From a bacterium (GTDB lineage: Bacteria > SZUA-182 > DTGQ01): DNA of 9,077 nucleotides. The notes below the pieces were generated by a model. It did not search any database, was not told where the DNA came from, and was given only the letters and a program-made list of their open reading frames with translations. Of the stretch, positions 1-1,560 are shown piece after piece (the stretch's first letter is position 1; the number at the start of each line of letters is the position of its first letter). The position numbers and the translations under genes are program-made. The DNA lies in assembly GCA_023512255.1 (NCBI GenBank), contig JAILZY010000120.1:1-9077 (forward strand), read 5' to 3'.

Positions 1-34
1 ACTTTCTTCTCTCTTTATTTTCTCTCCTCCCCTT

Positions 35-62
35 TATATTTTCAACATTATTTTTTCAACAT
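35..62. repeat. 14-bp imperfect tandem duplication
   Basis: Positions 35-48 and 49-62 both end in TTTTCAACAT and match at 13 of 14 positions. It is probably a replication-slippage duplication in non-coding DNA. Confidence 0.7.
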
Positions 63-103
63 GGGGAACATCTGTGGCAAGAGTAGTAAAAGAAATTCGT
101 TCT

Positions 104-131
104 TATTTATTAGCTACTATTTATTAGCTAC
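104..131. repeat. 14-bp perfect tandem duplication
   Basis: TATTTATTAGCTAC occurs at 104-117 and again, without a gap, at 118-131. It sits just beyond the end of the decayed restriction-endonuclease gene. Confidence 0.9.
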
Positions 132-176
132 CATTGAGAGACATAACCCTAATAAGAGCTAAGCCCCTTCGAGGGT

Positions 177-921
177 TTATAGTTGTTCTGATATAGGGTT
201 TATGGTGTCTGATATATAAGAGCGATTGCCTTTAATATACAAGACAGCATCCAAGATAGCTATGGTTATCGCCTCTACATTTTTTATTTCCAAGGTAGCG
301 ATAGCATCATTGAATTGCGCGTTTTGATGACCTCCAAAATCAGTTAAAAATTTAGCTTATCCAATTATATATTTATTTCCCATTGAATCTGGCAATAAAA
401 TCTAGGCCTTTATTTCTTTTGTAATGTAATCTTTCTTTAGCGAAAGAAAGCATCTCTCTATCGCTACCATCAAGGATGGCATTTTCTTTTGTATTAATAA
501 ATTCATCAATTTTAATAGGTTGTATGCCTAATGATTTTTTATTAAGCCACCTCCTAAACAAGGGACCAATTTGTCGATTGGTCTCTTTGGGCTCGGAGCA
601 TTTTACAAAAATATTATCTAATCCCATCTCATAAAGACGACCACAGAGACGATCAATTGTTGCTAGATTTCTTTTAATTGCTGAGGGATCTCGTTTTAGG
701 TATGCAACATAAGAATCTTTAATTGGGAAAAGGTTTAGTTTTAATAAATTTTTGATTAGTCCAAAGTTATCGCGTTTTTTAAATGCTTTCTCGACCTCTT
801 TCCAAATATCTTTATTTATATCTCGTATTCCTTCAGGAATTGTTGGATAAACTTGGAAGAGATCATCTAAGTAACTTCTTTGATTTGCATATTCAATACT
901 TAATGTTATCCAATAATTCAT
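177..921 (-). pseudogene. Decayed type II restriction endonuclease (PD-(D/E)XK type)
   Basis: The start ATG is at 921; the intact frame runs 182 codons (MNYWITLSIEYANQRSYLDD at the N-terminus) to a stop at 373-375. The end of this frame, KGLDFIARFNGK, looks like the first half of a PD-(D/E)XK nuclease core, with Asp174 as catalytic Asp. The second half lies downstream in another frame: YIIG, then TAA at 357-359, then AKFLTDFGGHQNAQF and on to a stop at 177-179. Removing one copy of the tandem ATTT duplication (371-378, plus strand) joins both halves into one 247-codon frame. The TAA then sits exactly where the ExK glutamate of GEAKF is expected (a GAA to TAA change). The family call rests on remembered motifs (KDSYVAYLKRDPSAI, EPKETNRQIGP, GEAKFLTDFGGHQ) common in type II endonucleases, possibly Tsp45I-like; recognition site unknown. 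No methyltransferase is visible. The gene is AT-richer than its neighbours and abuts the tRNA-Ser 3' end, suggesting acquired DNA. No Shine-Dalgarno precedes the start. Confidence 0.75.
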
Positions 922-966: not shown

Positions 967-1064
967 TGGCGGAGAGGGTGGGATTCGAACCCACGTGCCC
1001 TGCTCATCACAGGACAAGTCGATTTCGAGTCGACCCCGTTACGGCCAGACTTCGGTACCTCTCC
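967..1064 (-). tRNA. tRNA-Ser(CGA)
   Basis: Read on the minus strand, acceptor arms GGAGAGG (1064-1058) and CCTCTCC (977-971) pair, followed by discriminator G and an encoded CCA (969-967). The D stem is CCG/CGG. The anticodon stem GTCGA/TCGAC encloses the loop CTCGAAA, giving anticodon CGA. The long variable arm (GTCCTG paired with CAGGGC) is the class II hallmark of serine tRNA. The T arm is GTGGG-TTCGAAT-CCCAC. It decodes UCG. Its 5' 26 bases overlap the 3' end of tadA, so it is probably transcribed with tadA and cut out by RNase P. After the CCA comes TTTAGCTTTTT, which may help end transcription. Confidence 0.97.
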
Positions 1065-1560
1065 GCGAACCATCATTTCTGAGCTGAGCAAAAAAGCTCT
1101 GGAGCAAGGATAATGACCGCTCTCTGCCAACTCCTTCGATAACCTCCAGCTTTCCATCTCCCCAGAGCCAAACTGCCCCGATTTTTGATCTCACGGCACC
1201 ACTCTTTGGCTCTCTGAGAGCATAAATGAGCTGTGAAATTTTGGCCAGCCTAATAGCTCCAAGACACATGAGGCAGGGCTCTACGGTTACATATATCCTA
1301 CACCCCGTCAGCCTCCATTCGCCCAAGGCAGAGCCTGCCTGGCGAAGAGCCATGATCTCCGCATGAGCCGTAGGGTCTGCCTTTGCCTCAACCTGATTGT
1401 GCCCCCGGCCAATTATTGTCTCACCCTGCACGACTACGGCTCCAATCGGCACCTCTTGTTCTCTCAGACCACGTTCTGCCTCCTCTAGGGCAGCGTTCAT
1501 GAAATTTTCATGAAAATTATCAAGGATATCAATATCTTCTCCTTCAGGACCTAAGGCCAT
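1039..1560 (-). CDS. tadA: tRNA-specific adenosine deaminase TadA
   Basis: This zinc-dependent cytoplasmic deaminase converts adenosine-34 to inosine in the anticodon of tRNA-Arg(ACG). The cytidine-deaminase fold signatures are clear: AHAEI (zinc ligand His66, catalytic proton-shuttle Glu68) and EPCLMC (zinc ligands Cys96 and Cys99). EVPIGAVVV, GHN and PTAHAE also match TadA. At 173 aa it is near family length. The start is uncertain. ATG at 1560 has no Shine-Dalgarno and lies 2 bases after a TATAAT, while Met21 (codon at 1500) would cut into FHENFMNAALEEA, which aligns with the conserved TadA N-terminus. The C-terminal residues RRGTEVWP and the TAA stop are encoded inside the tRNA-Ser gene, the stop falling in its D loop. 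The spacer to the upstream ATPase gene is 170 bases and holds a separate promoter. Confidence 0.95.
   Translation of the reverse strand: MALGPEGEDIDILDNFHENFMNAALEEAERGLREQEVPIGAVVVQGETIIGRGHNQVEAKADPTAHAEIMALRQAGSALGEWRLTGCRIYVTVEPCLMCLGAIRLAKISQLIYALREPKSGAVRSKIGAVWLWGDGKLEVIEGVGRERSLSLLQSFFAQLRNDGSRRGTEVWP

Follow-up and report, generated by a model that had tools for sequence, protein, structure and literature searches.

A Tsp45I-type restriction endonuclease gene disabled by three lesions, probable remnant of a decaying acquired restriction-modification cassette

The window, that is the whole stretch of 9,077 nucleotides analysed here and also an entire contig, in all likelihood retains part of an acquired Tsp45I-type restriction-modification cassette in decay, with its endonuclease gene (R) disabled by three lesions and its methyltransferase gene (M) lost or moved. 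The R remnant occupies positions 226-921 of the minus strand, starts with the ATG at 921 and corresponds to codons 1-231 of 260. It shares with the Tsp45I-type Type II endonucleases the family, the D-x12-E-A-K spacing, the start and the order of conserved motifs, but differs from them in a frameshift after codon 182, a stop at the Glu, the absence of 29 codons and the lack of an adjacent methyltransferase. As read from the sequence, the gene would encode today at most a fragment of 182 residues that lacks both the catalytic Glu and the catalytic Lys and is thus no endonuclease.

The identity of the remnant was established with Pfam, by homologue identity and by the end of homology at the edge of a mobile element. 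When both pieces of the remnant were joined, with X at the stop, PF06300 (Tsp45I type II restriction enzyme) was matched over most of its length with an E-value of 5.8e-111 and a score of 370.6, the cut-off being 25 bits; the match spans remnant residues 2-233 and profile positions 1-235 of 260, the C-terminal 25 positions being missing. Among the homologues, the intact L027 is recognised by PADLOC as REase_II (model PDLC03495, 5.8e-129). Tsp45I itself recognises GTSAC. The suggestion of a preliminary description of this DNA that the gene is a restriction endonuclease is hence upheld by the Pfam search it had proposed, and can be narrowed to Type II. Searches with the endonuclease gave no match in NCBIfam and no relative among PDB sequences. 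A scan of genome contigs yielded 179 relatives, 80 of which were kept for alignment and locus counts. These 80 homologues, from Patescibacteria, Bacteroidota, Nitrospirae, Omnitrophota and other groups, display 67-80% identity, a level that across phyla indicates horizontal spread, and nearly all have 260 residues, ending in ...MSALVLREFLYQL/I. Of 96 further genomes taken from around the own one, just one has the family; no second copy of a Tsp45I-type gene was found in the own genome, and the GC content of the remnant is 32% versus 48% in the remainder of the contig.

The first lesion is a tandem duplication of ATTT at 371-378, where the plus strand reads ATTTATTT. It shifts the frame of the minus-strand gene after codon 182, and the open frame, ...NKGLDFIARFNGK, ends at a TAA (373-375) right after GLDFIARFNGK, the continuation past FNGK being found in another frame as YIIG*AKFLTDFGGHQNAQFNDAI and also as YIIG*AKFLTDFGGHQNAQFNDAIATLEIKNVEAITIAILDAVLYIKGN. 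Homologues carry FNGKYVIGEAK without the four extra bases, and none of the 80 aligned homologues ends naturally at FNGK. The second lesion is a TAA at 357-359 (minus strand) that, according to the alignment, replaces the codon of the catalytic Glu of D-x12-E-A-K, Glu187 in homologue numbering. This position is Glu in 79 of the 80 aligned homologues, the sole exception (L087) having TAA as well, and where the homologues present the near-invariant GEAKFLTDFGGHQNAQF the remnant has TAA. The D and the K of the core are still readable in the remnant, with the Glu codon turned into a stop and the frame already shifted upstream. The preliminary description had read the same end of frame, with the core continuing in another one, the same ATTT copy as its cause and the same stop in place of the Glu of D-x12-E-x-K, and it had named homologues ending at FNGK as what would speak against it; on all these points the translations and the alignment agree with it. 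Of the 109 near-invariant positions, just three differ in the remnant (P86L, the Glu codon and G224A), which argues for a recent inactivation and decay.

The predicted fold of L027 places D174, E187 and K189 on a strand-strand-helix-strand segment (strands 175-179, 182-190 and 217-222, helix 197-209), although the confidence of this model is low (pLDDT 61). A structure search of the PDB with the model gave no significant match; among its top matches were McrC, BamHI, XisH and Holliday-junction resolvases, and several of them, such as McrC, BamHI and the resolvases, are PD-(D/E)XK nucleases.

The preliminary description considered the gene to be killed twice, and while both the frameshift and the Glu stop are real, a third lesion was overlooked, namely the loss of the C-terminal 29 residues at a junction of a miniature element (MITE) and an insertion sequence. 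Homology to the endonuclease ceases at codon 231, at about position 226, and a dispersed repeat starts at 225, the last 29 codons being replaced by a 129-bp MITE (97-225, plus strand). The translation of 246 residues that had been proposed as the repaired protein does not represent a full-length one, since homologues have almost always 260 residues and residues 233-246 of the repair are MITE sequence. The MITE is bounded by terminal inverted repeats (TCGYTCTTAT...ATAAGAGCGA; TCGCTCTTAT/ATAAGAGCGA), whose 24-base pattern finds 196 matches in the genome, 100 forward and 96 reverse, and 0 in the reversed control, and the family amounts to roughly a hundred copies in the 3.8-Mb genome. The sampled copies (L104-L110, L113-L142) measure 91-123 bp for the most part, and an exact 6-bp target duplication flanks the majority of them. 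The family is thus like other prokaryotic MITEs in being short and non-coding, in its terminal inverted repeats, in its 6-bp target duplication and in its copy number, whereas the copy at R, flanked by AGAAAT on the left and TTGCCT on the right, has no target duplication. It also contains an internal 14-bp duplication. In four relatives no match to the MITE was obtained, in a search that had no positive control there.

A spacer of 22 bp separates the MITE from the terminus of a high-copy insertion sequence (1-74, plus strand) at the contig edge, which is repeated almost unchanged at no fewer than 39 other places, contig ends in nearly every case. The other contig ends that carry it show CAGATGTTCCCCATG..., and at the end of contig C32 a ribosome-binding site and an ATG are found further inside the insertion sequence. 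A recent expansion of this insertion sequence has probably fragmented the assembly. Dozens of contigs end in its 75-bp terminus (CAGATGTTCCCCATGTTGAAAA...), which is nearly the same in all of them (L144-L154).

The partner methyltransferase, which the preliminary description supposed lost or separated, is indeed absent from its expected place. In 79 of the 80 homologous loci, R is followed downstream on the same strand by a gene for a beta-class methyltransferase (DPPF) of about 380 residues. The two genes are immediate neighbours in nearly every case, L019 with a distance of about 3 kb being an exception, and no such cognate gene lies downstream of the remnant. The genome search that had been recommended, carried out with a homologous methyltransferase as query and with the PADLOC model PDLC03354 in the 96.6%-complete assembly, detected no cognate and only methyltransferases of other classes. 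In the own genome the strongest matches come from C77, with a Type III Mod of 40% identity, and from C104, with a large protein. Both score in the range of 136-169 bits, whereas a true family member scores 588 bits; the remaining matches are weak and partial. The C77 protein was rejected as cognate, being a Type III Mod beside its Res. Likewise rejected, as cognate or orthologue, was a methyltransferase on C112, which is of a different class, with a TSPPY motif and 310 residues, and whose best PADLOC model is PDLC03350 versus PDLC03354 for the true partner. The 80th homologous locus, L017 (L017:5001-5732), has an intact catalytic core and a shortened R C-terminus, lacks the methyltransferase and has a different gene directly after.

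The locus is anchored in the core genome by a tadA-like tRNA adenosine deaminase frame (1039-1560, minus strand), syntenic in the relatives G001-G003. The tRNA-Ser(CGA) gene (967-1064, minus strand; ARAGORN and Rfam) adjoins the insertion that carries the R remnant. The tadA frame, ending in RRGTEVWP, overlaps the 5' end of the tRNA (1039-1064), and this overlap is kept in two relatives (L155, L156). In G001-G003 tadA, tRNA-Ser(CGA) and tRNA-Ser(GGA) follow in that order, with no R, and beyond tRNA-Ser(GGA) both SRP RNA and dnaX were confirmed in G001, dnaX also in G002. In the own genome the R remnant comes directly after tRNA-Ser(CGA), and tRNA-Ser(GGA) was not found in the own assembly. The own contig C112 (L094:1-1500) presents tandem MITE pieces and the TSPPY-class Type II methyltransferase gene (36% GC), then SRP RNA and dnaX. 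It is very probable that a single AT-rich insertion, unassembled in its middle, has one side on contig C139 and the other on C112. Since the interior of the insertion is unassembled and tRNA-Ser(GGA) is missing too, the cognate methyltransferase could lie in this gap instead of being lost. A duplicated tRNA end marking the integration of an island was also considered and discarded, as the tRNA 3' end recurs only once, in another tRNA-Ser gene on C48.

The cassette would thus have been acquired horizontally and inserted between tRNA-Ser(CGA) and dnaX. The endonuclease gene would then have decayed, through the 4-bp duplication, the change of Glu187 to TAA and the exchange of its last codons for the MITE, and the adjacent methyltransferase gene would have been lost or moved. 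The MITE at R, with a foreign left flank and no target duplication, points to a MITE-MITE recombination or another MITE/IS rearrangement, which may have deleted the 3' end of R together with M. As to the order of these events, an orthodox Type II system whose methyltransferase fails will cleave the host DNA (PMC4687349). Cutting would therefore have been lost before M or together with it, and the order put forward in the preliminary description, with the nuclease inactivated after loss of the methyltransferase, is backwards for such a system.

Stop codons within the endonuclease gene were also found in homologues. In L087 (Bacteroidales, JAAYKF010000024.1; L087:5001-5783) the TAA falls on the same Glu codon, the rest of the 260-codon frame is open and a methyltransferase frame of 368 residues is open downstream. 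Single in-frame stops are present in three more homologues, at codon 84 of L044, codon 137 of L048 and codon 91 of L067, each again followed by an open methyltransferase gene. In total, 4 of 80 R genes but none of 79 M genes contain an internal nonsense codon (Fisher p = 0.06); the M gene of L038 seems to be broken in two by a frameshift close to the N-terminus.

This asymmetry bears on whether decay was driven by selection against cutting, with the nuclease inactivated first while M was present and M lost later through a MITE/IS rearrangement, a refinement to which we give an even chance. It is in keeping with the four R genes that carry one in-frame nonsense codon in front of an open M, and with the inability of an orthodox R to persist once its M is gone (PMC4687349). 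However, the difference between R and M reaches only p = 0.06, neutral loss of a dispensable gene fits as well, and one sequence does not reveal the order of its lesions. Selection for loss of cutting, as the preliminary description had proposed, is accordingly plausible and fits the asymmetry, as would neutral decay after the first hit.

The good conservation of the remainder of the gene, with so few of its near-invariant positions altered, would also be expected if the lesions at 357-378 were assembly or sequencing artefacts in an intact endonuclease gene. This is unlikely, as two separate errors within about 20 bases would be needed, the replacement of the C-terminus by the MITE would remain as a third independent lesion, and an active enzyme without methyltransferase would be lethal. 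Still less probable is that loss of the Glu by the same one-base change constitutes a recurrent, perhaps reversible, way of switching off cutting with methylation kept in Tsp45I-type systems. The change does occur both in the window and in the Bacteroidales L087, with its intact methyltransferase, but the chance that one of four nonsense homologues hits the codon affected in the window is about 4% (95 codons are one step from a stop), so that the coincidence is weak evidence of anything. Finally, the retention of the truncated 182-residue protein for another role, for instance as a DNA-binding or regulatory fragment, is extremely improbable. The frame does stay open to codon 182, and the codons of that part that differ from L027 are more often synonymous (69) than non-synonymous (38), but this ratio mainly reflects the time before inactivation, the part past the frameshift being similar (18 to 8), and no homologue has that end.

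The decay of an acquired cassette by three lesions, to which we return as the preferred reading, belongs to a common kind of event, as corrupted restriction-modification genes are present in large number in REBASE (PMC4687349). Like those, the remnant stems from acquired restriction-modification genes that were disabled and lost from the host genome; it differs in having a lesion on the catalytic codon itself and a tail removed at a MITE/IS junction. It is therefore a case of ordinary decay in a copy that is unusually easy to read, and it reveals no new system. What it provides is a readable snapshot of the death of an acquired restriction-modification system, with point lesions in the nuclease, a mobile-element junction and a methyltransferase lost or separated. 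Moreover, single nonsense codons recur in R but not in M of the Tsp45I family, a pattern that a larger sample could put to the test.
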